DNA from: Paralvinella palmiformis
Lineage: Eukaryota; Annelida; Polychaeta; Terebellida; Alvinellidae
Reading direction: 5' to 3'
Assembly: GCA_025642065.1 (NCBI GenBank)
Contig: JAODUP010000148.1
Coordinates: forward strand, 571,001-635,000
DNA: 64,000 nt
The position numbers and the translations under genes were made by a program. Under the pieces are notes generated by a model. The model did not search any database. It was not told the origin of the DNA and saw nothing but the letters and a program-made list of their open reading frames with translations. Of the stretch, positions 29,644 to 54,795 are shown in pieces (the stretch's first letter is position 1; each line of letters opens with the position of its first letter).

Positions 29644-29798
29644 TTAACGTGGCACGTTGGCAAACTCAATTTCATTTCCGGCAAACTCGCACTTGAAGTC
29701 GATTGGTCGCAGGTTTTCAGTGTTACAAGACTCTTCCACGACAGGTCCGCTATTCAGTTCGAGCAGTGACTTGTAGATGTCAATTTTTAAATCACGTA
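29644..29798 (-). CDS. Exon 15, last coding exon
   Basis: The exon follows acceptor CTCCTATTCAG and continues from the single base left by exon 14. It encodes 51 residues (about 1244-1294), from VRDLKIDIYKSLLELN to EFANVPR, and stops at TAA (29646-29644). It contains no membrane segment or targeting motif that I recognise. Confidence 0.75.
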
Positions 29799-30117
29799 CT
29801 GAATAGGAGAAGAAAAAAATAATTAAAAGATGAATGGGTTGCTTTGGTGGACAAACAATTAGTTTAACACCAATTAACCGACCAATGATATGCCCCGCCC
29901 CCACTTTATGAAACAGGGGGTTAAAAGGATATTTGAAATACGTCATCTCCCCAAAAGTCTGTTCTGAAAACTGACCCATTCAAGGTTGCTTTCACCGATA
30001 ATTAATGATTGTCATTCAAATATCTTATTTGGGTTTTACGACCACATTATTTGGGGTATCACTGAACAGTGCCTTTGTACTGCTCCTGTTAGTATGGGTA
30101 TATTATTAAATATGTTC

Positions 30118-30154
<37 letters not shown>

Positions 30155-30479
30155 GCTGGACAGTTTCACACAATGATAGATGAGGAACATAGTGAAAAAA
30201 TATGTTCCCATGCTTACCGATATTGATCAGATATCTCCGTATATCCACCCCATTCGATCGCAGCTCGCTAAGCTCTTCATCAGAGAGTTTCATCTTCGCT
30301 TCTCCGACACACTCCATGATTTGCTGCAGTCACGTTTATGAGATGAAAGGGAAAAAAAGGCTCAACATTAATACGTCTGAAATAACTCTATAGTAATAAC
30401 ATTACAAATGTATTCAAGCAGAACGTCACAAATCATCCTCTTTCCATATAATTTTTACCATTCAACATTATTAATTGAG

Positions 30480-30516
<37 letters not shown>

Positions 30517-33500
30517 GAGTTTAAGAGTACAGGACATTAATATTATTATTATTACGACTATAGTATACATCTACATTAAACGTGCTAACCTCTAGTAATC
30601 AAAGAAATCATTCTCCAGGCAAAACTGCATAATAGTAACCACATTAAAGCTAATTCATCATATCAGCTGCAATATATTATCTATATTAATCAATCACATT
30701 AAATATCTCATGTTGCAGCAGCCATTTTACAAATGCCGCTTTTCTAACACACCAACAACCATACTATACTACCCGTAGTCTACCCGACACAATACATGAC
30801 CACTACAGAGATGGGATTAATGACATTTTTAATGGTTTGGGGATGTATTTGAATGTTTTTTCATTTCTAGAATGAAGAGTGATTTTATATTTAATATCTT
30901 AGAAACCTAATTTCGTTTTGAAACATTTCGTTCACAAAATATCCACTTTGTAAAAATGCAGATATAAAGATTTGAGAAACTCACATTTTTCAAATGCACA
31001 AAATCATCCTCAAAAGCATTACAGATAAATCTAAAGAAAACAACACAGTGATATAATTAAAAATATTATATGTTCCATAAATGATACGTTCCTGTATTTA
31101 TGTTGCAAGCAGGCAGCACCAAACAACATTAAAGAAATATTTTGTCTCTTTTAGTGTGCTATAAAGGTACTTTGTAGCCAAAATAACTCAAACAATTGTC
31201 AGTGTATCTGAGCAACTGCAAAGCAAACATATTGAAGTTACTAGTTCACAAGGTTTATAAGTTATATTGTGAGTATACAATTTTAAAATGAAGCTAAACA
31301 AAGCCATGTTAGAATATTTTCAAACTGCAAATTGGTGAAACTGCAATTAAACAGAAAACGGACTGATTTCAACTTTTTTAAATCAAGTTTGGTGAAACTA
31401 CCATGTACACGTAGACATTTCTGAATTTCACTCGTAAGAGAAACTACTGTTCCATACATGAAAAACCTGAAATTCTGAAAACCAGCTAATAGTACTAATT
31501 GGATCATCAATGTAATGGTGTATGTGGCCAAATTTCCAATCAGATGCTGTTTATGGTGAAAGTAACATCGACAGATATGATGGTGTCAGCAATAAGTTCT
31601 TATTAGTAAGATGGTCATTCACTGTTCGGTACTTAAGTGTGTGAAAGATTCAAGATTTGTGGAAAAATGATGATTGTGTAAGATCATATCAAATTCTAAT
31701 CAAGACCAGGATGTTTGAAGCGCACTGCTATTATCACTCTGCCATCAGGATACTCACAGCAGAATAGTAATGTATCCACCATGTCTGATTATTATTGTGG
31801 AATTTTTATTACTGTTCTAAGCATTATATATTTGAAACTTATTTTCTGAGGGTGGACTATCCCTTTAATTTAATACAATTGTGTCTCAGATACATAACAC
31901 ATTAAGCCATACACATCAGACATGGGGTGAATTCAATTCTGGAATTGGAACTGATGGTCAATTCCAATTTTGGAATTGATTATTTAAAAAAAATGGAATT
32001 GACAAATTTTGAATTGGAATTGAAGTTTCCCATAACGACAAAAATAAATCCACAAAATAATTTTTGAATTCAAAAATATTTCTCCCATGACAATCCTACT
32101 TGGAATAGGTACTCAGAGTACCTACTCATTGTAAAAAAGTAGCAGGTAAGTAAAAAAAAGAGTCAGTAAAAACCGGAATTGTAATTTATACAATTGGATT
32201 TGATAAATTTGATGTGGAATTGGAATTGACCAAGATGCATTGACTGGAATTGTAATTGACAAAATGGAATTGACCCTGTGTCAGATACACATCATTCATG
32301 CAATATTAAAACCATTGTTAGAAGTAATTTATAAAATCAGCTACTGGTCAAGCAATGTTTGATGATCTCAGCTAAGATTCTAAGCATCATGCAGCTTAGA
32401 TGAAGTGTCTCAGAAGCTATTACCCATATTTAAATAATAATTACATCTGATTATTTCATGCACATAATAAGAATTCAAATGGTACATATAAATATGTGCA
32501 TGAATGCATTTATCAGACACTTTTTAAGGCTGACAACATACTTTTAGCATGCAAAACACCATATTACTAAAACAAAATAGGAAAAATAGGAATTTTCCCA
32601 GAAAATAGGATAAAAATAAGAACTTGATGCTCTGTTATTAATACATTATATTATATAGCAATCATAACATTCATGACTGAAACCAAACAAGCCAATCACA
32701 AGCAAGTTAAATTTGACAACTATACACAAACCTTTGCTTCATCAAAGTATTTATTCCCCTCAATATAGTTCACAACAGACTGGTGTTCATTGGCTTCCGC
32801 AACATCAAGGGCTGTCTTATCTTCTTCGTTTTTTTGTTTAGGTCAACATTGTACTTTTCCAGCGCAATAACCAGATCAAGGTTTCCCCACATGGCAGCCA
32901 TGTGCAGTGGAGTAGAGCCAAAGTAATCGGGTATGTTTGGGTTAGCTCCGGCCTTTAGTAACAACAGAGCCACCTCTTTCTGGTTCTTCCATGCAGCAAG
33001 CATTAGCGGAGTCATGTCGTCTAGACCTCTTTTTAACGTCTCCATCGTCTTATCCTCGTATTCCTGGATCAGCGCCTTGCTTGGATTCTGGCCTAAACCA
33101 GAGGCATGGATCTTGCCAAATGTCTTCACATCTATCTGTCCGCTGGATCTTTTCTGTTCATACAGGCAGGCCAGTGTACGAATCATGGTGATGTAATGCC
33201 AAGCCTTGCGCCCACGATCGCGGCCACGCACCACCTTCAACTGGTCTCTTTCGCTGTAAAAATCACGTTCATCGAGCAGCCTCTGTAGGCTATCACTTCC
33301 TCTCATCACACTGATCAGATATTCGAATGCTTGCTGATGGTTGTGTTCGGCAACCAGATGGAAACAGTTGCGATGTTCTTCATCGTGACCGGACACATAC
33401 TCTCCTCTTTTACACAGAAATCTCAGCATATTCACGTCGTTGTTGGCTGCAGCATTAAGCAGTGGTGTTCTCCCTCTGTCATCAATGCCGGAGCAATCCA

Positions 33501-36500
33501 CACCATGCTTGGTAGCCAGCTGCACCAATATCTCATAGTGAGCATATCTGGACGCCACAACAACCATTTTTGCATCGGGCTTTATCCCACTATCCAGGAA
33601 GGCAGACAGTGTTTGGAGGTCACCGTTCATGGCTACATAATCCAAGGCACGGTTGCCATCGTGATCGGCATGCTCCTGATCAAATTTGACCTTCGACAGA
33701 AGCAGCTTTACAACATGTGATTTTCCAAACTTGGATGCCAGTATCAGGCCGTTCTCTCCTCTGCTATTCTCAAGCATTGGATCAGCATCTTGATCTAACA
33801 GGAAGTGCACAACACTGACAGAGCCTTGTGCACAGGCATACAGGATGCAGACAGCACCGGTTTTGTCTGGCTCATTGATGTTGCGACACCTGGAAGAAAT
33901 ACACTCCACATAGGTGAGACAGCCCTTCAGACATGCTTTGTGAAGGGCTGGCATTCCCATCCAGAGGTCATCAAAATAGCTGTATTCTTCGAGGGTTGCC
34001 GGTCCTGGAGACTTGTATAGCAGCTTCTCTGCAAACCCTCTCGGCGTGTAACCCACATACAGAGGATCATCGACGGACTCGGTGAGCTGCATCCTAAGCT
34101 TGTCCCAGAGATTCAGGTAGAACGTCACCTCAAAATACTCGGGTCGCCCAGCTTGGATGATGAGATGCTGAATGTTAAAACCTTTCTCATTCTTCACCAA
34201 GGCCAAGTCTATCTCATCCATCGTCTTAAACAGCAGGCTGTACAAATCATATGGGTAGTATTTGTTCTTTGATTCTATGATGTTCTTGGCTAAACCACCA
34301 ACCACCTGGGCCTTTCTCAACAGCTGTTCCAGCGTCATTCCAGAGAAGTGGGAAATATTTTTCTTTCCAGAAGCAAACCTATCTAAGCCATAGGCATATA
34401 ATTTCGTGTCTTGTTGATCAGCGATGGTACTGCAAAGAATTAAGAAGATACCAGTAAATGCTAGATTGAAATAAACTGCAAAACATGAATAATGTTAGTC
34501 CACACATGACAGATTTACTTAAGTTGGGATAAAAGAATAGCTGTAGATCTTTCATCAGTGATATAGTTTCTCTTGTTATATACGATGTCTCTATAAATTA
34601 ATGTTATCTCTGAATCAGGAAACATCGCACGAACGAGAGGACCAGCATCATCAGCAACTGAGATTGGTACATTGTGTTCAACAATTCTGTGAATAATGCT
34701 TTGGCTCTTATTGTTGAAGTGCCCTTTTTTGAGACGTAAAAACACAGATATTTGCTCACAAGTTATTTTATCACTGGCATAAATGACATCTTGATGTTAC
34801 TCGGTTTTACTGCATCTCTGACAATCATTTCTCCCTTCAAGCGACACGGAAAATTCCATTCTACTTATAGTGCAAAATGCACTAGAATTGTTCAGAGAAC
34901 TGGGCTTCAATACAGGCCACTTGGTGCTGTACTGCAGCTTGTTCCTTTGTGATACTTTTGCCCTTTTTCTGAGGGGTACACTGGTTATTGGAGTCCAACA
35001 GCTTACAAAAGTGACAGATCTAAAGCTCGGCATATCTATATCAACCATGAAATATTAACAACACGAGCCTGGTGCATTCAGAGTGGACTAACACCTTTCA
35101 CCAAACACGTCCGTGAGATCAACAACATCGGAGTAGACTCAGCTTGACATCTGATTCCCACAGTACGGACTACAGTACAAGGACGCATTTTACCGGAGAG
35201 AATGCAAAACAAAAACACTTCCCTATAATGTGTCTCCCCTTTAACAGCCGGACATAACATGTCATGGTCCATTAGTTGTATGGCGTTGCTCACTTAACCA
35301 TACAAAAAAGCCAGTTGGCTGTAATGATCCTGTGCGTGTCAACTTCTGGCAAGTATTGCACTTTGACTTGTATGAGATTGTCTATGCCCTGCAGTTCTAA
35401 GTTGTGATTTAAGCTAGGGTTTATTAGTGGGCTAGTAGTAGGAAATCTAGACATTTATCTGGGATTTTCACAAATATGTCATAATAATAATAATAATGTG
35501 TGTTTATATAGCGCCAGAAGCAGGTAACCATTTTCTGAGGCACTGTACAGTATTATTATCCCCGACTCAGACCTGTTTCCACCCAGTATACATCTCAACT
35601 CTCAAAGGAGCATACAACACATGCCGCCATATTATAGGCACAAAGCATTACTTAAACACATACCCATCACGTCCTGTCAGGTTCTCATTTTTATGGTTGA
35701 GTGAACTAGTAGTCACATGATGGCATTGCAGCTCCAGGAGCCTTGAACTGGCGACCCTCCAGCTATTAGTCCTATGCTCTAACTAACTGCACCATCACGG
35801 CTCATCGTGTTGCAATCGTGCAATTTATAATATCTAGAATGGGCAGACCCGAGGTCACAGAAGATGTTGTTAATACTATCTCTTGTGGACTTATTGCCAG
35901 GATAAATTCAACTGTATGATGTGGCAATTGAGTTGATTTCAGTTATTTAACCCCAGTGCTGCTCACATCTGGGACAGTTGGGGAGCCTTTCTCATGCAAC
36001 ATCCCACAAACACAGCCGTGAATCAAATTTGACCACACAACTTTCAGGTTTTATGCTCGTGTCCCATGACTGATGGCTTAAAGGAATTACCTATAATAAT
36101 AATCTAGAAAATTTTGTCTCACGACCTTGCTAAACATTGAAAATGAGTGGCTTTCGCGGATATCAAATTTCCATTTGTAAAGGCAAATTCCATTTTCGAA
36201 AGGCTGATTCCAATATTTTTACCAATTTTCCAGAATCGAAGAAAACAGATGCTCTAACATCAGCTCTCAGTTGAAAGGAGCTTATACAAGATAATGGCAA
36301 TTCTTTTAATACATTATATTAATATTTTCACAAACTAAATTGATCTTCATAGCATCCAAACAAGTATCCCTTCCTCCTTTGAATGCAAAAATGTGAAAAC
36401 AGGGCGACACACTGATTTGCCATAATAAGTGATGCCAGCTTCGGTAAAGTTGCCTATCTTGTGGATTCCACATAAATAGGCAAGTGATTACATCCAAAAT

Positions 36501-36570
36501 GCCAACTTTCAGCCAGGTCCCAAAGTTGGCATAAAAGTGAGGTTAGTCTGTACATTAGATATATATACTA

Positions 36571-36615
<45 letters not shown>

Positions 36616-37139
36616 CCCCCCTCACAGAATTGTTCCAGTATGTGTTTATACAGCTAACAATCCATCTTCAAGTTCAAAAGGAACCTGTTACAATAGCAGT
36701 AGGTAGTTAGTGTCTGGGACTCTTTACAGAGAGGTGCAGTGTTAGTATAGCTGTTAATTAGTAAGTAGTTTGACCGCTTATACATATTTATGTGTACTGC
36801 TGATTGGTGTCATGGCAACACATATCTGGTTATATAAGATACGATAGTCTCAACCACTCCAACATTAAAAACAAGCAAGCAAGCATCCAGGTGATCAGCA
36901 AAAGATATATTCTGAACGAAAGAAGACTATCATTTTATCATTTATTTTGATGGTTCTTTGGCAAATTTGATGTGAGAAGCATGAGTTATTGTAAATACAA
37001 CTCTCCACACATCACAATAATTTTTTTTATATGGGCAAGTAGCAAATTCTGTACGTTCCCGTTTGAGATAATAAATTTCTTGAAAAATTATTCGTCTCCC
37101 TTGCTTTATTTTGGTGGAATAAAATACTATTTTTGTTCA

Positions 37140-37171
<32 letters not shown>

Positions 37172-40100
37172 ATAACAACACCGTAGAATGACATGACTAG
37201 CAAAAGCCATTCAAAGGTACCACACAGTGACAACACAATATGATGTAACTAAAACTCAATTAGAAATACGAATGATTGCTATTCTTTGTTGCTGAAAGCA
37301 ATCCTAAACCGGTGAGTTTTAGAATAAACTTTTAATCAATACCAGCGATCCAGAGAAAGATGGGCGAAGAGACATCACAGCACTGAATTTGCTGGCCAAA
37401 AATTGACCTCAAACATCTGACCTGACAGAGACGCTGCAATACTGATATGAATCATCACCTTTGTAAAGTGGCTATCAGCTGCACAGCTCTATCTTCATCA
37501 ATGATGACCAACCACGAGAACGAGTGCTCCACTTCTGGAAACTTCAGGTGCTGCTTGAACATCGAGAGGAACTGGCCATTTTTGTAACTGGTCAGGATCC
37601 TTTCCACTTTGGATGGCTTTTCCAGAATGACCTCCAGGATCATATAGTCACTGCTTTCGGCATCAACTATATGGATGTTTTTCACCTGAAAGATGGACAG
37701 ATTGACATATCCTATATCAGTATACTTACTGCTCTAAGAACTTTGTAGTTCTCCCAATCTTACCCCACCCAGGATGGACCTGTAGAATCCAATATGATCA
37801 CCAATGTCAAGGGGAGCCTACTATTTCTAGTTGTCAGCTAAAAGTGTAAAGTTCACAGTAATTCACCCTAAAGGGCTATGCATTTTATATTGAAAAACAA
37901 TACCTGCGAATATTTCTCTAATCTGTGACCCCAGTGCACCACAGAAGTCTCTTAAAGTACCTGATGTCAGTGCATGAAGACAGGTGGAGCCACCGAAACC
38001 TGTGACATCACAGCAGATAAACACAACTAACTGTTTTGTTTTGGAATTGGTTTTATTTATATCGTGAACTAGCAGTGTTTTACTATCAGTATATTTTGAT
38101 GTATAATAACTTATAGAATGATTGTGAAAAATGGTTTGGCGTTGTGCTGTGTATTGATGTGAGAATATTAGTTTAGAAAGTGTGATTTTCGTTTATAGAT
38201 TTTCTCAGCCATCTTCGAAAAAACTGAGAGTGGCTTGAACGTGTTCTGTCCAACAAACGCGGAACAAATGGCACCCCACCATACATATGATGATATATGG
38301 TGAACATTTTGTTGGTGACAATTACCACAACAAAATACAACACGATATGATATGTGGCTGGCGAAATTATTTTTGAAGAAAGGCGCCGTTCCTACTGTGT
38401 CAACCAAACGTCAACATGATGCACCCGTCTAGACTAGATCTATAACAAGTATTAATGCCACAAAAGATTTTCCAATGAGACCAGTTGTTCGAAAAAGAGA
38501 GGCACACAGGCTGAGTACTTTGTATTTTATTATTAAATTAATAGTAAATATGCACTTATGGTAGCTTGATTATTAAAAATATAAACTTACTCACTGACAT
38601 TGTTACTGTTTTGCAGCAGATAAATAAATGATAATTAGTTCTTGTTTGGTGCGCACATAGATTGTTAGAAGTATGGTGATCAAAGAGGAAATACAAGTTG
38701 TTGTTGATGAACATGTGGTTAACCCGTCAGATGACGAACCTGAACTAGATCTAGAACCAAGGACAAAAGACGTGTCAACACAAGATGACCCCCCTCTGTC
38801 TACCAAGCATCTGGCATTCCAGACAAGTATGCCAAGCAAGAAGTCTGAACAATGATGCAAAGGTACGATTTTCACACTATTAATAATATGCAGTGTGTTC
38901 CTAATTTATATACAGTATTTTTAGCTGGGTGTTTAGACCGTGAAAGAGCCCCATTGAAATGTAACAGGCACATTAAAATTCAACCCAAAACCTATATTCT
39001 ACTTGATCTAGATTAGGTAGACATGCATCATATGTTGAATACCATCTTATCAAATTGTGCATGGATTGAACAAATTTAAATGATTATTTATCCAGAGACA
39101 CATACTGATCCAAATATCGAAGCCAAATACCCAAAACATCAATTTGTGTGATGTGTGTCATAGCTGGCTGGGATCTACCATGACCCGGACCCGGTAACAT
39201 CCACACCTAAGTAAAGGAAATTGGGCCACGTTTCCCAACACGAGGGTGATGTGCTAGACTCGGTCTCATCATGATCCGGTAAACAAGATGGCTTGGATGA
39301 GATTTTACCACCCAAGTTTGAATGCCAACAGGAAACAAACAATCAACAAGGCTGGAGATCCAGTATTCACAATTTGATTTCCAAAATTTAAGAAGGTTGG
39401 CTACAGCCTCCAAAGCAAGAAGGTTAATCCGACATTCTGTTAGTATAGTGTGAATTCAGTTAAATAGTTTATTAATTAGTTTATTTATTAATCACCTTTT
39501 GGTGTGCATAAAATGGGACAGTTGGTTATCTGTAAAATGTTTATCAAAACACCTATACAATACTCAAGGCACTCAATGGATGTTTACTGATAACTACGAA
39601 CTGAAATATGAGTAAATGGAATTATTTGATACTCAGAGCAATAATGACGATGATGATTGATGTTTTAAGGCCACTTTTGTGCACATGGTAGGCTAAATGA
39701 GCTGAATGACCTCCAAAGTTAATGAGATGCAGTCAAAGATGAAACACCTTTCAGATATGGCCATGCTGAGATTCAAACTTGGGTGGTGGAGATCTATGGT
39801 CCAACGAGCTACCAACTAGACCATGGAGGCCACTTGATACTTGGAGCAATGTCTGATGGATGGCAGTGATTGTGCTATCAATTATCACATGAACACATGA
39901 AACTGTATGGAAGAACCTGTGCTTATTATAATATGAAATTAAGTTCCAATTAAATGTCTCTTCGCCCATCTTTCTCTGGATCGCTGGTATTGATTAAAAG
40001 TTTATTCTAAAACTCACCGGTTTAGGATTGCTTTCAGCACCAAAGAATATCAAGTTTTTGTAAATGGTGGAGGCCTATGATATGTAAGGATTACCAGTTG

Positions 40101-40760
40101 AATTACTGCTGAAAATTGCCAAATTCAAAATCTTCGCTCCAAAATATTCAGAAGCCGAATGTCTCACTTTAAACTGCTTCCACTCTATGTTGGAGCACAC
40201 AATCGCGGAGCCAGACTGTACCTTGTAAATGTGCAACAAATGCTGGCGCAGCTGTGTCCAAGGATCTTCCAACATGGCCTTGGCCTGTCTCTTAAGGTCA
40301 ACAATCAGTTCATCCTGTTCGGATACTGACAGTTTGGCTTCCAGATGTAAGGCTAGCTTAATATCGAGTTGTTTCTCAGTTCGCGCTACAAGTAATCAAT
40401 ACATTATACAGATTAGATAAAAAAGACAAGTACAATAAAAGTGGGTTACTAAAACCTGGGATATAATGAAATGATTGCTTAACTGAAAATGGTTTGCTGA
40501 TCTGACCAATCTCCCATTTACTTCTATAATAAACATATTTGAATACAACAAAATTTATATGATAATAACTGGTTTAAATGAAAGTAATTGTTCAGTCCCT
40601 ATAGCAAAGAAATGAATATAAACTGTGCAAATTATAATGAAATTCAAAGTTAGAAAATATTTGTTGCATTTTCATTTGTCCATCCAGCAACTAGTAGGCA
40701 ATCATTGTGAAAATATATAGAAGATAGATAGAAGTTTCTTTCCAATATTCGATATACAAG

Positions 40761-40809
<49 letters not shown>

Positions 40810-42042: not shown

Positions 42043-42090
<48 letters not shown>

Positions 42091-44010
42091 ATAATTAACT
42101 AAAATGTACAACTTACGAGCTAAATTTGCTGTTAATTCCTCTTCAAGCAGACTTTGAAACTGTGAGATTAGAATTCCAACAAAGTCATACACTTCGCTCT
42201 TTTTCCATGAAGCCTTTGGAAATACTTTGACTGTTGTGAACCTCCTTAAAGAAGATGGTATATCTTTGGGTTTCAGTCCAAACAATTCAATGGGAACCAA
42301 ACTGGTACAGTGGGAGGCATTCTGACTGGAAATGGCCTCATAACAAGATAGCAGATGCTTGTTCTTCACAGCAGTGGACGTCAAAAACAGCACAAAGACC
42401 GCAGTGGAATATGTTGAATAGAAGTGGACTTCCTCGAGATAAGTTTGAAATGATGAGTCGCCACACAAGAATACGACGGGCCTAGTCCTTGTCTTGGTCA
42501 AACCAGATACGATCTCATTGATTAGCCTGCCTACTGCGGTCCCTTCTTCGAATAAGAAGAAGAAAAAATGTTCCCCATGACTCAGAAGGTAATCTGTGAA
42601 AGACAAAACGTGTTGCAAAACAGACTGATCACAGGCAAATATTGCTGCACTCAGAAGCTATAAAAATGCCATTTCGCTTACTGGACAGAGTCGACATTCA
42701 GTCTGGGATAGATCATGACAGATTCAAATTAAACACAACCAAAAAGGTACTCTAGCCAAACAAATCACTCATTTTGTTTTCAGAGATTCATTTACTTAAA
42801 GGAATTTTACTAAACTGCTTTAATCCATTTGAATGCCTAGAATATAATCACCAACAATCCAGTAGTAGTTCGTTCAAGTTTTTGTTGGCTGCCTCTGAGG
42901 TAGTCTGCAATGTATGTGCAAGTGAGTGATACCGTATGCACATGGACAAGGGACCCCTTATAAGGGCTATTTATTTCAAGCACTGTTTTACCCAAACACA
43001 CCTATTCAAGCATGCCCTTATTCAAGCAGAGGCCGTTATTCTTCTTTAAGCATATTTATGGCTCAAAAACTAAAATATTCAGCATTCCAAACGTCATTTG
43101 TTTGACTGTGTTGCAACAAATTTGGCCTTCATTTTTATGAGTTATTTATACATTGCTATTAAAACACACGGTTGGCTTGCCGTATATTGGTCATGTGACT
43201 AATTATGGGAATGTGAGCTAACAATGAAAACCTAACTCAAACAAAATCTAGAAAACATTAAACCATTATATCACATGATGATGATGGTGATTGATGTTTT
43301 ACAGCCACTTTTGTGCACATGGTAGGCTAAATGGGCCGAGAGACCTCTAAAGGTAATGAAGCGAAGTCAAAGATGAAACAACCTTCAGATAGGCCCATGC
43401 CAAGATTCGAACAAGGGTGGTAGTGATTTGAGGTCAAACATGCCACTGCTAGACCATTATATCACATAAAAAGCAAGTAAATATCTAATAAAATGTTGTA
43501 ATTTTGATAATTTATCAAGTGAATTAAGACAATGAAAAATTATTGGTAATGCATGTGTGAACTACAGGGATGAACCATTCATTTCTGAAGCGTTTATGTA
43601 CACATTGCACATGAGCAATAATAACACACAAGCACAATAACAGATAAAACTTGATTTACATCCCCTGGCCCTTATTCAAGTATGCTGTTATTCAAGCAGA
43701 GGTCCTTATTCGCGTGAGTACGGTAGTTATAATGTTTTCAGGCATCTCAATTCCAATTCCAAATTTTTAAATTCCAATTCCAAATTTCTCAATTCCAATT
43801 CATTTTTTTTAATAATCAATTCCAATTCCGGAATTGACCATGTCTGCAACTCACTAATACATATTTTGGACATAACCCCACTCTTAAATTAATATTTATT
43901 TTGGTGCTGTTAATTGATTGATTTTTATTATTATATACAACATTTATATAGCACTCTCTATAATATTGTACAACATGTTCAAAAATGTGTTACATGTAAA
44001 ATAAGACTTA

Positions 44011-44054
<44 letters not shown>

Positions 44055-44720
44055 TGTTGAAGAAATATATATAGTGATGATGTCAATTTTTGGGCTGCCA
44101 AGATCGGGTATGATTCAGAACAAATTTGTTTCTTTAATATCGTATTCTCTCTGTGTGTGTGAGTGTGTGTGTGTGTGGGGGGAACCATTTACAAGTGAGT
44201 GTTTACCACCTACCTATGGCTGATCGCATACTGTAAGGTTTTGATGCTTTGAGCTTTTTCTGAAATTAGAAACAAGAGAACAATCAAACAGGCTGTAGCA
44301 CGCAAAGTAAACAGCTAAAACTGAATGTATGTTTGCGTTACTTGTCAATACGTTTCAACAAATGCCAAATGACAGCCATTCCACAATCCCCATGCACTAA
44401 ATTGATTCTTACTCATCATCTGTCAACATTTCTCACCATTCCAGTCCCAAGCAAAAAAGAATAAAACATTGGACAGGCAAATATTTTGCCCTAAAATATA
44501 GCATCACTAGTATAGCCATTTTTAGGTACAAACAAACATTTATTTTAAAAAAACACGCCAAAATGAACAGTTTTCATTGCCTGATACAATCAGTTATATC
44601 ACACACACAAACACACACACACGTACACACAAAACAACCCTAGATAAGTGTCATTAAAGAATCTTGGTTACGATAACCTGTTTATATATATCAAAGTATT
44701 TATGAAAATCTGTTGCACTT

Positions 44721-44755
<35 letters not shown>

Positions 44756-46802: not shown

Positions 46803-46837
<35 letters not shown>

Positions 46838-49317
46838 TACATACACACAGACCAACAGAGCAGGTCATGTCTACACCCAAAAATACAGAATATGACCATC
46901 CAGAAGGTCATCTTTGCTATTATGTATGTCATCCTAAAACGCAGATTGCTGATTGTTTATCTCATACCTGTGTTCTACAATCCATACTCCAACGAGCATC
47001 TTTTTGCCCAATATAAAAAATATCTTGCTTCACAGACTAGTCCTTACCCAGCCACCTTGTTTTAGAATCCATGCAGCCACATGCTGGGTCACAGCCATTT
47101 TCAGCTGGTCTAATGAAGTTGTTAAAGCATCCCTGTTACATTTCGAGGGCTGACTGAGAAGTCTCTGTGAAGTACAAAGAACAGTTGGTGTTACGAGTGA
47201 AAAACTGAGCGAGTGCTTTTTTTAGGTAAACAAGGCAACATGGTAAACATTAGCCCGATATACTGTTGTTCATATTTAACACTATAATTTCTTTTACAAC
47301 ATACCTTCAGTTGCCAAACAATTTGTCTGAGTTTTAAATGGGTGTTGGGCTAAATGAAACTTTCAGTAACCATTGTTTTAAAATTTCTTCGCATACAACA
47401 ATCGAGAAACATCTGATCAGTTCACATCAGCACAATTCATAACCATATTCAAAATCTACACCGTGCCAAATAGGGAACCTCCATGGTCTAACTGGTAGCA
47501 GGCTTGGTCACAGACCTTTAACACATCAGATAAGTTCCTGGCATGGCTATGGTCAAAGGATGTTTCACCTTTCATTTCACTTCACTGGCTTTCGAGGTCA
47601 CTCAGCCCATTTAGCATATTATGCAAAAGTGGCCACATTTCATGTGACACCTGACACAATCCTAAAATACATAACCCTGAAGGCTCACCGGGGTCCATTT
47701 ATAATACCAAATTTAAATAAGAAATATCAGGGATATCAGGTAAACTTTAATACACACGCACAATATTATTATCTTTCCATATCTAGATCATATCATATCA
47801 CCGTGGCGAGTATTTGTTTTTATCCTTGGCTAGCAACAGTCATGCCCAGGATATATCAGCGAGGGATAAAAATCTGTTTGTATATCGCTTTTCTGATCAA
47901 AGAAAAAGTATAAAATGCTTGGATATTATTTAATTTGGAAAATGCAACGTGTTAGCTTTTCTATGAATCCAAAAACAATGATAAACTGTGATAACTGTTG
48001 CGTGGATTAACAGGTTTGGAGTCACTACCCAAATGACTTAGTTTGTATCGTCCTTTTAATCAGATAGCGCATTACTGGTGGAAATCATGTATTATGTAAT
48101 AACCATGAAGTGTCCCCCCCCCCCCCCAATGAAGAATTGGATAGCTTGCAAGATGGTATCATATTTCCAAAAAATACAGTTTTTAAAACGTCTGTTAGTC
48201 ATTGTTAAATAATAATTAGCTATTGGCTAATTTCAAACCTGAACACCATACCCAATTGGAATGTGACACATCCCTCACATTAATTTGGATAATCACCCAC
48301 CCAATTGGAGATGAGCCTTCAGCAACAATAAAATACACTGCCAGGTGAAGCCACATACTGTAGCCAGTAGAGTGTGGCACCTTACCTTTATAAAACTGAC
48401 TTTGAGGTTGGAATTGTTATTAGAGATTTAATTAGACACAAGAAATACATGCTACAGGTATAGTTAATATTTTATAACTGCACAAGACAAACATTTATAA
48501 GCATTTTGAATGATTGTGAAAAATAAACTGATTAAAATTTTTTTAATCAGATTTTGGCTCATTCAGCTTAATGTACCTGTGCCAACAAGAAGAACAAAGA
48601 CACCAGAGACACCACCGCACTCCACGACTTCTCTTTCTTGTCCAGGATCTTGGAAGCCAGCTTCAGCACAGTATCACTCATTACCAAATCATCAGCATCC
48701 ATACACTGTAGGGCCCTGTAATCCAGTCAAAAAATATTTGCTGCATATTATTAATGGAAAGAAAAGTTCCAAAACATTCCAACCGCTTAAGATTGTATGC
48801 AGGGTTTTGTCCTGGATCTGTTATCCGTGCTATTTCACTGTAAGTTTATTAATAATAACACATAGAAAAACAAATGAAAAGCCAAATACAAACTTGACAA
48901 GGGCTGTCCTATCTACGCAGTTATCAACCTCTGTAAGAATAATTTTACTGATTTTTTTGGCATCCACTGGAGCCAAGTCTGAAATGCAAAAGATTGTTTT
49001 TCTGTGAGCTGTAACCAAAACTCCATGTGCAGACAGATTATTACATACACCGTAGGTTTCAACAGAGGTTACCATCATGAAACATGCCAAGTGTTATCAG
49101 TGGTTTATAACAAAACAAATGCCTTACCACTGGAGCTGTTCTCGCTCAAGATCTCTATGTATTCAGTGACATCTGCTGGCAGTGGTGACAGTCGAAACTT
49201 CAGCATTATGGCAATTAGTGTGACTGCCTGATTGACAACTGCAGTAACAAAGGAGTAACTGCACATTCCATGATGATAAATCAACAAATCTTGGTCTTTC
49301 TCTCCTTCTCTCCTTCA

Positions 49318-49350
<33 letters not shown>

Positions 49351-50009
49351 AACTGAAGAAAACATGGTCAAAATTCACTGACTTTCAAAGAAAATGCAAA
49401 TTAATCAGTACAGTGTTGATTCAATATGAACAATACTTCTGACAGGCTTCACCACAAGAAAATCTGAATTCACAAATCACAGGTCCATCTTGTCTCTACA
49501 GAACAAATTAGCACAACGAACCCAAACAATTTAGATCACCGCGTCATACCTTGTTCTATCTTCCAATTCCCTGGTTCAGAGAGCTGTGGGTACAAATAAT
49601 AGAACATGATGGCAACTATCGAGCTCAGTGAGTAGATAATTAATTAACGTACTAATTTAAGCACTTCAAATTCTACAGAAAATGTGCCCATTAATGAATG
49701 AATGATGGGACATTCCCTTAATCTACTAGGTCCTGTACTGCAAAACGTCTAAATTATGGGACTGAATCATATGTTATCATACATGTGGGATGTTTCATCT
49801 ATCAGTAAAAAGACTTTTTTAATTAGACAGCGCCAATACTGATTACTGTGAAATGTTCCGATAAAATCAAGTGATTTGTGTGGCTTACTAAAGCTTTCAC
49901 ACTTACTTAACTGACTGAACCTCCTAACTAAAACATGATGCAACTATCTAGTTAGTTATCTAATGCCTCTAATATCACTGTCAGATAATCAAATAAAATT
50001 ATCAAAATG

Positions 50010-50052
<43 letters not shown>

Positions 50053-50714
50053 CAATATAATCCACACAAATAAGAGTACCTATATCCCAATAACTATATA
50101 TAACAGATAAACAGTTTCCTCCACCCCCAAAATTTGGTTTCATCTTGCATCTTTGTTGTAATTTCATGAGAAAACATTATTTTGATTTTCTGTCATATGA
50201 ATGTTTGATGTGAAACCATTGTCACTTCATCGTCATCCACAATTATTGGCATGCCAGCATCAGTCAGATCGAGTGAATAATCCTGTCATTTTCTTGTTAT
50301 CTAATGGCCGAATAATTGGGACTTCATTATCAGAAACATATGATCAGATTAGATTAATAAAATATCATCTTAAATATTGATTTATTTTGCATGGTGCATT
50401 TACATTTTTAACAAAATATCTAAATCATCATCATCATCATCATCATCAGTAATTGTATTTTTAAATTCCAGGTTTATTCTAATTTTTCAGGTACATCCAT
50501 TCCTGAGAAAAACCAAATTTAATCTAGGCTAAACCAGTAAAAACGTAGTTTAGCCTGGATTTAATCCAGCACTGATCAGCCTGAGCAAAAGGAGGTTCAT
50601 CTGGGTTAAACCTTCGGACCTTGTGGTGAATATGTTTAAAATCCATCTTCAACTGCCTCCTTCTCACTGTGTATCAGTAACCGATGACTGCTAATTAACT
50701 AACAGATAGAAATA

Positions 50715-50748
<34 letters not shown>

Positions 50749-51958
50749 GAAATTTTGGAAATTGCAGGCCCAAACTAAACTTAGCTGTCATTAAACTGAA
50801 ATGGATAATTAACCTTTTCGCTTAACCACTTAGAAAAATATTTTGTGATGTACGAGGAACCAAGGTCAGGTGACGGCATGATTATAAATGTATGGATAGA
50901 CTGAAGATGAGTATGGCTTTCCTCTGTAAGAAACTATTTGAAATGAAATATCAGAAACTGGCAGATATCAATATTAAAATGATTATTTAAATAATCACAA
51001 GGTGTGTCAAATTAATAAAGAACAGGGATTTCAAACAGGATATTTATTAAATATGAAATTACTTGTAGGATCTCAAAAATAACACTAATGCGATTGGCTC
51101 CAAAAAATATACCTGTACCTGTTTACATACGTATCTTTTTGGTGCAGCAGCCTCTATGACACCCTTTAGCTACATCACCTCTACATTTGATAACCACAGA
51201 ATAACATAAACCAGTTTTAAGTGCATATAATTTCCATAAGATTACAAAACAATGCACAACATTTTTTTAAATCCAGTTTCTTTCAATACTCAATAAACAG
51301 TTTCCGGGTTTTGCAATGATGCAAGGTCCCCCCCCCAAATAAATTAAATGGCAATGCTTTCAAACTAAAGAGGAGTTATTTGTTGGATTTAAATCACTGC
51401 AAAATAATTGTTTTGTCACTAATTTGATTTTTATGATCATTGCATTAATTTTAATAATTGTTTTGTAAAGATCCATTTATCAATTAACTTGCAATACAAA
51501 AAATTAATTGTTATTTAAAATCAGTTGTTACTTAAGGCTAAGTAATTATTTTTACATTCATTTACAATTGCAGTTAGATTTCAACACCATGAGGTCTAAC
51601 AAGTCATCCTGATCAGTGACGATTCCCTCAAATCTATGACTCGGATGATCTTGGGAGATTAACACAACAGAAGGTGTTAACTGAAGACACGCTGCTTTAA
51701 TGTGGTAAATTGGATTAATTTTGGGATGACCAGACACATGAAGTCATATCTTTTATAACCAATTAGGGATCATTGAGCTAATGGTAGGCATTTGGTGTTT
51801 AGCCAGGATGGGTATAATGATTTCTTTTCTACATTTGGTCTATTACACTACAAACTGAGGAATACACTCAGAATAGACAGGGCAAGAAAACTCGTGTTCA
51901 TCTATAAACTGTTAAACCAATGATCTTGAACTGATTATTTACCTTTCTGGACTAGCTT

Positions 51959-51992
<34 letters not shown>

Positions 51993-53981
51993 TTATATAC
52001 ATATATATATGTGTGTATGCATGTGTGAACATAATATGTATGATTAAGTTTCAAATATCAGTAAAACTATAAAAATGCTGTCATTAGTTTGTGTTCTGAA
52101 ATGTTTGACTGTTGTTTTTAAAATGAATCAATTTAAATTGAAAAAAATCAGATTTGTTGGCAACTATAATTTGTTATGAAAATGGGCAAATATATTACCT
52201 TCTTGGTGTTTTGAAAAATAAATTGGAAAACAGATAATATGTGTAGTGTCACTTCACTGACTTTAATACATGTATGCTATAGGCACAATATATACTTATG
52301 ATATGGCAGCTAATTTTACAGTCCATGCTGAAATTAATTAAAAATGAAAAGAAAATTCCACTGGCAATATTTTGTAACACTAATGGAAGATGGGTACCTA
52401 TTTGCAATTATATCTGATGCAATTGTTACAAATTACAGTAGAATAGTATTGTTTGGAGATTCAAGGGAACTGTAAATTAATTCTACTTAGCAATACTTCC
52501 ACACATTCAAACATCACTTTAACCACTCAACACAGACATCAATCATAGTAAATTTTAAGTAAATTACCATTAATAATAACGTTTTCTTCTACAAACATAA
52601 TATTAATTCATGGGCTTCTTTGTTCTAAGTAATTTTTTTTCACAGGCAATATTATTTCCAGGACATTTCCTGATTTTGTAAAATTCAAAGACATTTCCAG
52701 GACCTGGAAAATGAATTTGTTATTTTCTATGAGGTGTGTAGGAACCTTGCAAGAACAACCAAAAGAGCTTTATTTGATAAAGATTGATAGAAATAATGAC
52801 TTTTGCTAAAAATATTGTACGGTCATTATATATATATATATATATATATATCCTTTATATACAAAATTTGATGCTAAAAGAGGAAGTGTTCTTTTTCCGG
52901 ATTTTTACTTATAATAGTTATATGTAACGAATGTGTATCCAGAGGAACCGAAAATATCTCCATGTGTGTGTGTGTGTGTGTGTGTGTAGGAACATTCCAC
53001 ACATCAGTATTCCAGACACAAAGGTATTCTATTGTAGTCAGAAAAGGACTCTTAGTTTAAGCTTATGTGGGAAAAACCTGACAGAAACTGCTAATTGTAA
53101 TATAAAAAATAAGATGTAAAATGAATATAGTCAAGTTAGTAATCAATTACTTTAACATTTAACCAACCAAGAGAGATTTTTTGTTTAGTCTTGGCACTGG
53201 CCACAGCTGAAAGACATGGCCAAGGTGAAACTGTCTGAACAATACGATCATGAAACATCTCACAGAGACAGGTAACTGAGTGATTTGAACCAAAACTTGG
53301 AAGTCTGCACCACAGTGAACTATAAACTGCGCCACATGAGGGGGGCACTTCCTGTGTGCCCAAAAGTGGCTATAAAACATCAATCTTCAACATCATCTGT
53401 GCTATAATGTATCTACATACACTTAACAAAGTCGGTGTAATTAGCACTGGGTTAGGATAATTACATTGTTATGTGAAACACTTCTCTAAGGATAGCATGG
53501 TGTCTTCCAGTGTGCAACGAATTTATGGTGCCACATCTGAGAATCAAAAAACTACTCTATTTCGTCACCTGGAAGACCAAAGGTTAATGACAGAACCAAT
53601 TAAAATGTTAACGCTCATTAAATATGCAATTCTTATGCACATTAAATATTAAGTCATATATAAAGCTCATTAACTATACAAACAAGCAAGTCACACAGGT
53701 AAATGCATTACCAACACTGGTATGGTGGAAAATGATAGGTTAGTTTGACCCCTGTCTTCTTTTATAAAATATTTAAATTTGTTAGATTTTAATAGAGTTT
53801 ACCAAATACTATGCATAATTTCAGGGGAAAAAAATCCAGACTCTGCTTATTTACTCTTATTTAATTTTATGAATTTTCCAGACTCTATGCTTATTCATCA
53901 TCCTCTATTTATTCAAAACTTGAGAGGATGATGACTCACCACTTGTTGCTCTACACAAGCACTCTCCTCTTCAAATTCCAT
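29644..53981 (-). CDS. Bcl-2-like / TIR / TRADD-N-like / ankyrin multidomain gene, 15 coding exons
   Basis: This is a spliced gene model built by hand. Coding exons, high to low: 53940-53981, 49550-49583, 49128-49238, 48890-48978, 48577-48705, 47048-47149, 44214-44259, 42117-42593, 40095-40385, 37904-37999, 37459-37711, 34519-34773, 32732-34429, 30218-30323, 29644-29798. All junctions are GT-AG and every phase matches, giving about 1,294 residues if one base missing from an A-run is allowed for. Domains: Bcl-2 fold about 26-169, TIR-like about 192-325, helical linker 344-440, TRADD-N-like alpha/beta segment about 470-556, unidentified region 557-800, ankyrin repeats about 800-1190, tail to 1294. 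No signal peptide or terminal membrane anchor is visible, so a cytosolic scaffold or sensor is likely. Function is inferred from domains only. The main doubt is whether the Bcl-2 part and the TIR-ankyrin part are one transcript. Confidence 0.6.
30030..30153 (-). repeat. Interspersed repeat family C with (TTA)n tail
   Basis: ATTATTTGGGGTAT, CAGTGCCTTTG, GCTCCTG(T/C)TAGTA and an (ATT)n run (30118-30153) match the copies at 59,015 and 60,228. Confidence 0.65.
30218..30323 (-). CDS. Exon 14, C-terminal helical segment
   Basis: A 106-bp exon (acceptor GACTGCAG, donor GTAAGC) in phase 0 encodes residues 1209-1243, including KMKLSDEELSELRSNGVD. The sequence is helical and charged. It follows exon 13 in phase only when the shifted frame after the A-run is used, which independently supports that frame. 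Confidence 0.75.
30324..32731. other. Intron between exons 14 and 13
   Basis: It holds a (TA)n run at 30,480-30,514, a MITE (31,917-32,283) and a short element end AGGGTGGACTATCCCTTTAA near 31,848. No further exon is needed, because phases of the flanking exons match. Confidence 0.6.
31917..32283 (+). mobile_element. AATTCC-rich MITE, reference copy
   Basis: The ends are imperfect inverted repeats: CAGACATGGGGTGAATTC at left and the inverse of CTGACACAGGGTCAATTCC at right. The inside is a quasi-repetitive array of (T)GGAATTG words around a core ACTTGGAATAGGTACTCAG. No coding sequence is present. Confidence 0.6.
32732..34429 (-). CDS. Exon 13, ankyrin-repeat array
   Basis: The largest exon (1,698 bp; acceptor ATTCTTTGCAG, donor AAG|GTTTGT) encodes residues 642-1208. 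A helical region (including TLEQLLRKAQVVGGLAKNII) precedes ankyrin repeats that begin about residue 800. Recognisable cores are MPALHKACLKG, RGRTPLLNAAANND, MTPLMLAAWKNQ and STPLHMAAMWGN. An insert of about 80 residues, rich in Arg and Lys, separates early from late repeats. The frame breaks at a run of seven A on the coding strand (32829-32835). Before it the protein reads NVDLNKK; after it the next frame reads EEDKTALDVAEANEHQSVV, which completes the last repeat. One missing base explains this. Confidence 0.9.
32829..32835 (-). other. Frameshift site in a seven-A homopolymer
   Basis: Seven T on the plus strand (A on the coding strand) mark the point where the ankyrin reading frame changes. 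Eight A would keep the repeat and the exon 14 phase intact. A sequencing or assembly slip is the simplest explanation; a real allele is possible. Confidence 0.75.
34519..34773 (-). CDS. Exon 12, unidentified conserved-looking region
   Basis: A 255-bp exon (acceptor TTTATGCCAG, donor AA|GTAAAT) encodes residues 557-641. Parts such as KSQSIIHRIVEHNVPISV and RNYITDERSTAILLSQL look like ordered globular protein. Entry phase 2 and exit phase 2 both fit. The exon would be skippable in frame (255 bp), since exon 11 also ends in phase 2, so an isoform without it is possible. I cannot name the domain. Confidence 0.6.
35480..35806 (-). mobile_element. tRNA-derived SINE, family B
   Basis: The right end is tRNA-like on the minus strand (GATGGTGCAGTTAGTTAGAG, then GGGTCGCCAGTTCAAGG). 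The body contains GTATACTGGGTGGAAACAGG and GCGCTATATAAACACA. The left end is an (ATT)n tail. Confidence 0.65.
37280..37375 (+). repeat. Left arm of a 96-bp inverted repeat
   Basis: From TATTCTTTGTTGCTGAAAGC to GGGCGAAGAGACAT. It matches the inverse of 39954-40049 at all but about one base. Confidence 0.9.
37459..37711 (-). CDS. Exon 11, TRADD-N-like alpha/beta domain
   Basis: A 253-bp exon encodes residues 473-556: strands (YVNLSIFQVKNIHIV and YMILEVILE), a helix with KVERILTSYKNGQFLSMF, then a final strand and helix WLVIIDEDRAVQLIATL. This order, with the 'Y..G.L..M' helix, resembles the ferredoxin-like N-terminal domain of TRADD and similar domains in invertebrate death-domain and ankyrin proteins. 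That assignment is an inference by eye. The acceptor ATATAG has a weak pyrimidine tract but is the one that gives the right phase. A stronger-looking TTTCAG lies 26 bases downstream. Confidence 0.6.
37904..37999 (-). CDS. Exon 10, start of the alpha/beta domain
   Basis: A 96-bp exon between GATGTCACAG and GTATTG encodes residues 441-472 (from GFGGSTCLHALTSG to IREIFA). It enters and leaves in phase 1 and restores continuity between exons 9 and 11, which otherwise do not fit. It lies, with exon 11, between two long inverted repeats. Confidence 0.55.
38673..38855 (+). other. Acidic short open frame inside an intron
   Basis: A 60-codon plus-strand frame from an ATG has an acidic, proline-containing composition (NPSDDEPELDLEPRTKDV). 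It lacks a recognisable domain, and no splice partners are evident. It lies in the inverted-repeat-flanked block, so it may be a transposon remnant or chance. Confidence 0.15.
39646..39832 (-). mobile_element. tRNA-derived SINE, family A
   Basis: Head at right (GGTCTAGTTGGTAGCTCGTT), family body and CATCATCGTC tail. Confidence 0.75.
39954..40049 (-). repeat. Right arm of a 96-bp inverted repeat
   Basis: Inverse of the arm at 37280-37375. Exons 10 and 11 lie between the arms. Confidence 0.9.
40095..40385 (-). CDS. Exon 9, charged helical linker
   Basis: A 291-bp exon (acceptor ATTACTTGTAG, donor GTAATC) encodes residues 344-440. It begins with charged, helix-prone sequence rich in Leu, Glu and Lys (EQDELIVDLKRQAKAMLE), then a mixed segment with SGSAIVC and KILNLAIF. 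Entry and exit are phase 1 and both fit the neighbours. An internal GTACAG could serve as an earlier donor but would not fit exon 10. I do not recognise the domain. Confidence 0.6.
40765..40807. repeat. (TA)n microsatellite
   Basis: About 21 TA units in the intron between exons 9 and 8. Confidence 0.95.
41287..41949 (+). mobile_element. hAT-like nonautonomous element, copy 2
   Basis: Terminal inverted repeats CAGTGTTGCCTCTAGG and the inverse of CCCCAGAAGCAACACTG bound a 663-bp non-coding element. Flanking octamers TACTATTA and TATTATGA agree at six of eight positions, consistent with the 8-bp duplication of hAT elements. Confidence 0.7.
42008..42088. repeat. (CT)n followed by (CA)n microsatellite
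   Basis: About 15 CT units, a short bridge and 20 CA units directly downstream of the exon 8 donor. Confidence 0.95.
42117..42593 (-). CDS. Exon 8, TIR-like domain
   Basis: A 477-bp exon with acceptor TTTGTCTTTCACAG and donor GTAAGT encodes residues 185-343. The beta/alpha alternation of a TIR domain is visible: strand HFFFFLF, helix GRLINEIVSGL, strand PVVFLC, strand TAVFVLFLTS, then LVPIEL followed by IPSSLRRFTTV, which resembles box 2/3-side sequence of MyD88 (LIPIKY and FPSILRFITV). A glutamate in SCYEAI (Glu270) sits near the position of the catalytic Glu of SARM1-type TIRs, though the alignment is by eye. The classical BB-loop Pro-Gly is not evident. The domain could be a TIR adaptor or an NADase; sequence alone does not decide. 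Confidence 0.7.
42931..43726. mobile_element. Possible DNA element with TACCGTA ends, containing a SINE
   Basis: TACCGTATGCACATGGACAA at left resembles the inverse of the right end (TACCGTACTCACGCGAATAA). Inside, 'CCTTATTCAAG(C/T)A' and 'TTATTCAAGCAGAGG' occur near both ends. Confidence 0.4.
43277..43453 (-). mobile_element. tRNA-derived SINE, family A
   Basis: Family body and tail are clear; the head is shortened. CCATTATATCACAT occurs on both sides (43263-43276 and 43454-43467) as a target-site duplication. Confidence 0.8.
43735..43860 (-). mobile_element. AATTCC-rich MITE fragment
   Basis: CAATTCCAATTCC words and the end GGAATTGACCATGTCTG match the family at 31,917. Confidence 0.6.
44023..44051. 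repeat. (TA)n microsatellite
   Basis: About 14 TA units next to (CA)n. Confidence 0.95.
44214..44259 (-). CDS. Exon 7, 46 bp, joins the Bcl-2 and TIR parts
   Basis: Acceptor TCTAATTTCAG and donor GTAGGT bound 46 bp that read KKLKASKPYSMRSAI plus one base. The entry phase matches exon 6 and the exit phase matches exon 8, where Asp185 is completed. It contains an in-frame ATG (Met180), so it could instead hold the start codon of a separate TIR-ankyrin gene. No typical Bcl-2 C-terminal anchor exon was recognised between this exon and exon 6. Confidence 0.5.
44722..44752. repeat. (TA)n microsatellite
   Basis: About 15 TA units. Confidence 0.95.
46073..46631 (+). CDS. Possible small two-exon gene or gene fragment nested in an intron
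   Basis: On the strand opposite the main gene, an open stretch to 46351 ends CATTGTGACAG|GTAATA. A second segment after TCAATCCCTGCAG (46484-46631) joins it in phase, giving Asp at the junction, and runs to TGA at 46629-46631. The first part holds GIKLLFDSTANYN and NYSGCIVCTNCRPFLADM with three cysteines. The second has TLAGLAERAPENNDPIL and LKLGNEVIINCDNSFKI. Upstream, a different frame is open from about 46073 (YSCSEVEWGFTQMKF) and meets the first part at a run of seven G, so a one-base slip may be present there too. I do not recognise the family; a transposon-derived fragment is possible. Confidence 0.35.
47048..47149 (-). CDS. Exon 6, BH2 segment ending at the conserved GGW
   Basis: A 102-bp phase 0 exon encodes residues 136-169. 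It ends in HVAAWILKQGGW, a clear BH2 motif (compare WIQDQGGW in Bax). The intron falls directly after the final Trp (TGG|GTAAGG), the position I recall as a conserved intron in animal Bcl-2-family genes. Of two acceptors four bases apart, CAGTCAG|CCC keeps phase 0 with exon 5. Confidence 0.7.
47474..47645 (+). mobile_element. tRNA-derived SINE, family A
   Basis: Head CCTCCATGGTCTAACTGGTA, body GAGGTCACTCAGCCCATTTA, tail replaced after GTGGCCACATTT. Confidence 0.7.
48577..48705 (-). CDS. Exon 5, BH1 segment
   Basis: A 129-bp exon in phase 0 on both sides encodes residues 93-135. The second half, KSWSAVVSLVSLFFLLAQ, has the BH1 pattern of a tryptophan followed by an amphipathic hydrophobic helix, as in NWGRVVAL of Bax. 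The conserved Asn-Trp-Gly-Arg is SWSA here, so the Gly and Arg that shape the BH3-binding groove in family members are absent. Spacing from the BH3-like segment matches Bax. Confidence 0.65.
48890..48978 (-). CDS. Exon 4, BH3-like segment
   Basis: An 89-bp exon (acceptor TTGCATTTCAG, donor GTATTT) encodes residues 63-92. The stretch KKISKIILTEVDNCVD (about 70-85) lines up with the Bax BH3 helix, keeping hydrophobic spacing and the key aspartate (Asp81). The small glycine normally just before that aspartate is Val here. A second possible donor (GTCAAG) lies seven bases upstream but would break the phase with exon 5. Confidence 0.6.
49128..49238 (-). CDS. Exon 3, N-terminal helix region of the Bcl-2-like fold
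   Basis: Acceptor TTACTGCAG and donor GTAAGG bound 111 bp. The product, about residues 26-62, has a hydrophobic amphipathic helix (VNQAVTLIAIMLKFRL) followed by a polar loop with a serine cluster (SENSSS). By position this matches helix 1 and the loop before BH3 in Bax/Bok-type proteins. It ends in phase 1, and exon 4 supplies the two bases that complete Asp63. Confidence 0.6.
49318..49347. repeat. (CA)n microsatellite
   Basis: About 15 CA units in the intron between exons 3 and 2. Confidence 0.95.
49550..49583 (-). CDS. Exon 2, 34 bp, before the Bcl-2 fold
   Basis: A small exon between CCCACAG and GTATGA. It reads LSEPGNWKIEQ in phase 0 and ends after one base of the next codon, which exon 3 completes as Val. 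It is too short to be convincing alone. The support is that its entry and exit phases both fit the flanking exons. Confidence 0.45.
49584..53939. other. Intron between exons 2 and 1
   Basis: It is AT-rich, with (TA)n tracts at 50,012-50,048, 50,717-50,747, 51,959-51,991 and 52,826-52,852, a (TG)n run near 52,963-52,986 and SINE pieces at 53,205-53,395, where a tRNA-like head and a family A tail face each other. No exon was found. Confidence 0.5.
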
Positions 53982-54621: not shown

Positions 54622-54775
54622 ATTGTGTAGACTGTGCCGAACGACCCCCAAAGGTAATGATGCAAAGTCAAAGACGAAATGACCTTCAGATATGCCCACG
54701 CCGAGATTCGTACACAGGCGATAGTGATCTGAGGCCCAACACGCTATCACTAGACAACGGAGGCTCCCCGCCCAT
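54622..54775 (-). mobile_element. SINE, family A, diverged (copy 1 of the duplication)
   Basis: GGGTCGTTCGGCACAGTCT, GACTTTGCATCATTACCTTT and a damaged B-box (TGTACGAATCTCGG) on the minus strand. The same piece is at 56,596-56,749. Confidence 0.6.
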
Positions 54776-54795
54776 CAGCAACGGTCTGGGGTATC

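Follow-up and report, generated by a model that had tools for sequence, protein, structure and literature searches.

The cytosolic adaptors BCAP, BANK1 and Dof carry a TIR-like domain ahead of ankyrin repeats with a DBB domain between the two, and Bcl-2 proteins are characterized by the motifs WIxxxGGW in BH2, NWGR in BH1 and LxxxGD in BH3. Metazoan TRADD-N proteins are an expanded group with fusions to domains of apoptosis and immunity (Kaur et al., eLife 2021; PMC8195603): the sections of that paper used here give fusions to a Bcl2 domain for the DEDD2 clade, fusions to ankyrin repeats for the NCOA6 clade and TIR as a fusion partner of bacterial TRADD-N. A metazoan chain of Bcl-2, TIR, TRADD-N and ankyrin is not named in those sections of PMC8195603, and it is absent from the titles and the beginnings of the abstracts of the papers listed in searches on the domain combination or on cephalopod TRADD-N, including PMC9334734. 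The first-pass annotation of the locus described below had offered the combination as undescribed; within these sources the exact chain was indeed not found, but TRADD-N/Bcl2 and TRADD-N/ankyrin fusions are known (PMC8195603).

The locus lies in a 64-kb window (the whole stretch of DNA that was analysed) from Paralvinella palmiformis. A multi-exon gene on the minus strand between 53981 and 29644 is confirmed, its exon joins are phase-compatible and 12 coding exons are supported, the first of them taken from an exon scan and the one at 44259-44214 ambiguous. The first-pass annotation had described 15 phase-matched exons in one continuous frame; the compatibility of the joins stands, but 12 exons are supported and the frame is out of step by one base in an A-run at 32835-32829. 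In the direction of transcription, the features are:

53940-53981, minus strand: candidate first coding exon with the ATG at 53981, MEFEEESACVEQQV; 12.5 bits as an initial exon
49550-49583, minus strand: possible second exon, phase 0 in and 1 out; 34 bp only and unproven
49128-49238, minus strand: Bcl-2 helix alpha1-type exon; scan rank 7, with the same donor phase that the alpha1 exon has in the Bax-like gene in L009
48894-48978, minus strand: BH3-region exon with a degenerate BH3; 85 bp, phases as in the BH3 exon of a Bax-like gene of the same genome, also 85 bp
48577-48715, minus strand: BH1 exon, ending KSWSAVVSLVSLFFLLAQ; PF00452 together with the next exon, 139 bp in both window and paralog
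47048-47164, minus strand: BH2 exon, ending HVAAWILKQGGW, donor gtaagg in phase 0; scan, phase fit and PF00452
44214-44259, minus strand: linking exon KKLKASKPYSMRSAI, phase 0 in and 1 out; alternatively, the start exon of a second gene; phase fit, paralog end MRPAI
42117-42593, minus strand: TIR-like alpha/beta exon; paralog 35-37% identical, no match to a TIR profile
40222-40385, minus strand: helical exon with LEDPWTQLRQHLLHIYK; paralog 48% identical and used to set the 3' end
37459-37685, minus strand: TRADD-N-like exon; PF09034 below cut-off, paralog 29% identical
32732-34429, minus strand: ankyrin-repeat exon of about 560 aa; Ank_2 2.7e-39, paralog 47% identical
32829-32835, minus strand: A-run at which the reading frame shifts by one base; paralog continuous
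30218-30323, minus strand: C-terminal exon; paralog 58% identical
29644-29798, minus strand: last coding exon with the stop, ending EIEFANVPR; paralog 66% identical

The best support for this architecture comes from the conserved exon order and strand of a diverged paralog. Among five candidates scored, the TIR-like exon matches at least two places in the genome, its own locus and C1979:432640-433113 (4.4e-29). The 50 kb around the latter contain counterparts of the BH3, BH1, BH2, linking and TIR-like exons, colinear and on one strand, and these are followed further along the same strand and in the same order by the helical, TRADD-N-like and ankyrin exons and by both last exons. Protein identity between window and paralog was 0.31, 0.35, 0.48, 0.29, 0.47, 0.58 and 0.66 in a seven-module comparison that excludes the first, alpha1-type (49238-49128) and linking exons, and codon position 2 is conserved above position 3 in each of the seven (0.61-0.84 vs 0.24-0.42). 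The domain order proposed initially, i.e. Bcl-2, TIR-like, TRADD-N-like and ankyrin, is kept in the paralog, but the names TIR and TRADD-N fall below threshold; we write 'TIR-like' and 'TRADD-N-like' because no TIR profile matches and PF09034 stays under its cut-off.

The exon scan covered both strands of the whole window and yielded 2,739 minus-strand candidates; its coding model was trained on the exons from the TIR-like exon to the stop, including 34773-34519, which was later dropped. The ten best non-overlapping minus-strand candidates include the ankyrin, TRADD-N-like, helical, BH1, TIR-like, alpha1-type, last, first and C-terminal exons, with 48715-48577 ranking 5th, 49238-49128 7th, the start exon 9th and 47164-47048 13th, and the BH3-region exon 48978-48894 reaching only about rank 40 in the same list. 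Third on the list is a false exon in a short tandem repeat of the QPLSLGSGGL type, which lies at 29009-29225 just downstream of the gene. Because unrelated plus-strand candidates, outside this gene and in no known gene, score 13-17 bits, scan ranks below about 8 are weak as sole proof. The first exon, with 12.5 bits, exceeds the best initial exons of six control regions (4.4-10.3 bits), a score to be read with the caveat that unrelated initial candidates reach up to 16.1 bits in a scan of 16.5 kb upstream of the paralog. Of the four candidates listed from the first exon to 49238 that fit in phase, the possible second exon is the best; the paralog region yielded no counterpart of the first exon or of this one. 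Exon 34773-34519 was discarded: its coding score is low and equalled by 34% of 93 null segments, its splice sites are weak, it has no match in the paralog and its neighbours are in phase when it is skipped.

Two features flank the gene. A tandem duplication of 1,978 bp with 99.9% identity (54106-56083 and 56080-58057) begins roughly 0.1 kb upstream of where the gene is proposed to start, and its span of 54106-58057 may reflect either a recent duplication or an assembly artefact. An open stretch on the minus strand at 23019-23284 presumably resembles a retrotransposon endonuclease; the 70 residues searched gave no Pfam family at E ≤0.01.

The Bcl-2 part is proven by a Pfam match and by the paralog rather than by scan ranks. 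Joined, 48715-48577 and 47164-47048 match PF00452 with 4.5e-8 and 34.0 bits, and the paralog domain scores 36.3 bits, both over the cut-off of 31.4, so that the Bcl-2 fold proposed in the first-pass annotation is upheld; the single exons tried and the first spliced models had given no Bcl-2 match in Pfam. Exon 47164-47048, with the terminus AAWILKQGGW, came from a search for small phase-fitting exons. The closest PDB sequence match of the joined BH1 and BH2 exons is Bax (5w63, E 0.01), followed by A1, BOK and BAK at E 0.2-1.1. Of the BH3-, BH1- and BH2-like motifs described previously, BH2 is kept (AAWILKQGGW in the window, AAWIHENGGW in the paralog), but BH1 and BH3 are degenerate and have lost key residues: in an alignment with a human BAX row, NWGR is replaced by SWSA and SWSH and LxxxGD by ILTEVDN and MVHDINS in window and paralog, respectively, the Gly-Asp being absent. 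The BH3-region exon has a weak donor, gtttgt, and a paralog counterpart of 82 bp, and is retained despite this donor because its length and phases match those of the Bax-like gene; the paralog counterpart of the alpha1-type exon is tentative only. Two other readings were rejected: the 37-bp stretch 48337-48301 as a linking exon would place BH1 and BH2 too close together, and both this stretch and a BH2 at the start of the TIR-like exon give way to 47164-47048, a far better fit to Bcl-2 and to L009.

Intron structure points to the likely source of this domain. A search of the genome (594 Mb in 2,597 contigs) gave eight PF00452 matches (L001-L008), with L007 and L008 belonging to the same gene. 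In L001-L005 a single open frame spans the entire profile, and in L006 it spans the second half. The BH2 exon ends with GGW followed directly by gt in seven of the eight loci (L002-L008), an end not seen in L001, and only the L007/L008 gene has a BH1/BH2 intron as in the window. In this Bax-like gene, the BH3, BH1 and BH2 exons measure 85, 136 and 111 bp, and intron phases run 1, 2, 0 and 0 from the intron ahead of BH3 to the one behind BH2; the corresponding exons in the window measure 85, 139 and 117 bp with identical phases. Judged against L009, the window has the Bax-type intron positions and phases around BH3, BH1 and BH2. Another of the eight loci, L004 on contig C250, is a CARD-Bcl-2 fusion in one open frame of 357 residues (CARD PF00619 3.2e-14, Bcl-2 1e-23). 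No convincing exon for a tail anchor was found downstream of BH2 in the window or the paralog, where simple-repeat hydrophobic stretches might still supply one, and the same scan ranks the tail exon of L009 first. The missing key residues in BH3 and BH1 and the lack of a detected membrane tail speak against a typical killer of the Bax type.

Whether one gene or two are present turns on the link between the BH2 and TIR-like exons. In window and paralog alike, a phase-0 end of the BH2 exon faces a phase-1 start of the TIR-like exon, so that either an intervening exon is needed or the genes are separate. The phase-0 acceptors 42624 and 42657 were rejected for the TIR-like exon, as the paralog keeps the acceptor matching 42593. 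The 46-bp exon at 44259-44214 fits in phase in both copies. Phase-fitting linker candidates number seven in the window and four in the paralog, and one pair has a common end, KKLKASKPYSMRSAI and VNYQSPHECRLTMRPAI, running on into DYLL and EYLL, respectively; this 3' similarity was equalled by 4 of 400 shuffles and by 2 of 66 real-sequence control pairs. We lean slightly towards a single transcript encoding one polypeptide from Bcl-2 through ankyrin. The competing reading, which we take seriously and rate as somewhat improbable, is that a pair of neighbouring genes was copied as a unit. The first would be a degenerate Bax-like gene (53981-47048, with a further last exon not seen here); the second, with the TIR-like, TRADD-N-like and ankyrin parts, would have its start codon at the Met in 44259-44214 (MRSAI followed by DYLL, in the paralog MRPAI followed by EYLL). 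The linker pair could be such a start because its similarity begins at this Met, both copies having A at -3, and the upstream codons are unlike; moreover, the linker scores -2.2 as coding sequence in the frame required of it, and in the scan the interval does best in a different frame (8.3 bits). Also in favour of two genes, the rest of the introns is not conserved above controls once simple repeats are filtered: in filtered tblastn of the two BH2-TIR introns the linker match has E 3.2, which is without significance, and the best match has E 0.005, within the range of six control stretches (0.001-0.065). Unfiltered tblastn finds SLSLSL/CVCVCV simple-repeat translations common to both introns (E 2.3e-7), and because both introns carry these repeats there is still room in them for a hydrophobic tail. 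Several observations count against two genes: (i) the BH2 exon has a phase-0 donor in both copies, (ii) no good, non-repetitive, hydrophobic last exon follows BH2, (iii) both copies can be read in an open frame of the required phase from the Met back to an acceptor, (iv) the spacing in the paralog is only 1.8 kb, (v) the TIR-like exon of the window contains no Met and (vi) no initial exon in the BH2-TIR intron of the window rises above controls (best 5.3 bits vs 4.4-10.3). On the other side, phase-fitting terminal-exon candidates score 9.3 bits in the window and 12.2 bits in the paralog, the latter being low-complexity SLSLSL, one initial-exon candidate in the paralog has 8.2 bits and the BH2-TIR intron of the window has 11 AATAAA/ATTAAA motifs.

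Identity as a TIR domain, as the first-pass annotation had it, is plausible for exon 42593-42117 on a weak profile-profile signal, but the exon passes no TIR profile threshold. In hhalign, the two copies aligned to seven TIR domains with E 0.028 and an HH-suite probability of 1.8%; 2 of 100 column shuffles were as good, vs 59 of 100 for a receiver set and 11 of 100 for a small-GTPase set. To our eye, the alternation of strands and helices and the late IPxxLxxF..W stretch resemble those of TIR domains. That the exon instead encodes another alpha/beta fold is an alternative that we consider unlikely, these TIR-like features and the contrast with the other alpha/beta sets speaking against it; what recommends it, beside the low HH-suite probability, is that no TIR family was listed by Pfam in window or paralog, by NCBIfam for the window copy, by PADLOC for both copies or in PDB sequence searches with the window copy and a two-row profile. 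The best profile matches are likewise not to TIR: over about 28 residues the window copy resembles NADH dehydrogenase subunit C (NCBIfam 0.00068, Pfam 0.0073-0.031), in every case well short of the cut-off, and the best match of the paralog is DUF5718 (0.041). The Glu in LSC(Y/L)E, a candidate for the catalytic glutamate of TIR domains, is kept in both copies; of two single-exon structure models, both poor (pLDDT 52.5 and 34.6) and insufficient for a fold search, the one consulted for the TIR fold is unusable.

For the TRADD-N-like exon the picture is similar. PF09034 matched three constructs with E 0.51, 0.16 and 0.039, all under the curated cut-off; 0.16 belongs to the exon alone and 0.039, equivalent to 14.4 bits vs a cut-off of 25 bits, to the exon with the preceding exon and eight following residues. 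The family was not listed at E ≤1 for a longer open stretch, nor for the paralog, and on these pieces some unrelated families equalled or exceeded its score (Crass_capsid 0.11, MPLKIP 0.0092). The TRADD-N-like assignment made initially is plausible, but sub-threshold and absent from the paralog listing. Neither the TIR-like and TRADD-N-like exons nor their two-row profiles gave useful matches in PDB.

The ankyrin repeats, by contrast with these two sub-threshold domains, are certain, as first annotated (Ank_2 2.7e-39, 134 bits vs a cut-off of 27.3). Between repeats, exon 32732-34429 carries a long insert, DFYSERDQLKVVRGRDRGRKAWHY, which is strongly conserved in the paralog. Beyond the A-run at 32835-32829, the repeats resume in another frame that matches the paralog, in which 631 residues are unbroken; both an assembly error and a recent mutation fit this one-base break. 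The break is also what would mark the window copy as a decaying pseudogene, a reading that we regard as very improbable: the remaining supported exons are open, the codon-position pattern fits selection since duplication and the break sits in a homopolymer, where assembly errors are common.

We suggest that the locus may be one of at least two paralogous genes for a large cytosolic adaptor. A degenerate Bcl-2 domain of Bax type would come first, followed in order by TIR-like alpha/beta, helical and TRADD-N-like parts, an extended ankyrin array and, at the C-terminus, a conserved tail. The ankyrin repeats would bind a partner or an invader protein, the TRADD-N-like and TIR-like parts might signal onward by self-association, and the Bcl-2 fold would serve as a protein-binding module near the cell-death machinery and not form a membrane pore, as the Gly-Asp of BH3 and the Gly-Arg of BH1 are absent and no tail anchor was found. 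Such a protein could couple the sensing of pathogens or damage to apoptosis, as was first proposed for it. In its fullest form, which we put forward tentatively and with rather more doubt than conviction, the model is a two-gene family of single chains that join a Bax-derived, BH3-independent Bcl-2 domain to TIR, TRADD-N and ankyrin and that would carry parts of the intrinsic, Toll and TNF death and immune pathways. Should the fusion hold, an immune-type adaptor would have taken up a Bax-derived fold as one of its modules, outside the usual role of that fold as membrane pore or BH3 receptor, and the described set of metazoan TRADD-N architectures would be wider; the paralog and the Bax-like gene in the same genome make this origin testable, with intron phases pointing to the source of the domain.

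Compared with known systems, the gene differs from the Bax-like genes of its own genome (L007-L009) by the lack of NWGR, of the BH3 Gly-Asp and of a detected tail anchor, and has BH2, intron positions, phases and exon lengths in common with them. The CARD-Bcl-2 gene L004 is likewise a fusion of an adaptor domain to Bcl-2, but with CARD and a canonical Bcl-2 in a single open frame. The metazoan TRADD-N proteins, in the sections cited of PMC8195603, have TRADD-N fused to Bcl2 or to ankyrin repeats, whereas the TRADD-N match in the window is sub-threshold. Finally, the gene shares with BCAP, BANK1 and Dof a TIR-like domain placed before ankyrin repeats, but it has a Bcl-2 domain in front, its ankyrin array is long and Pfam lists no DBB domain in it.
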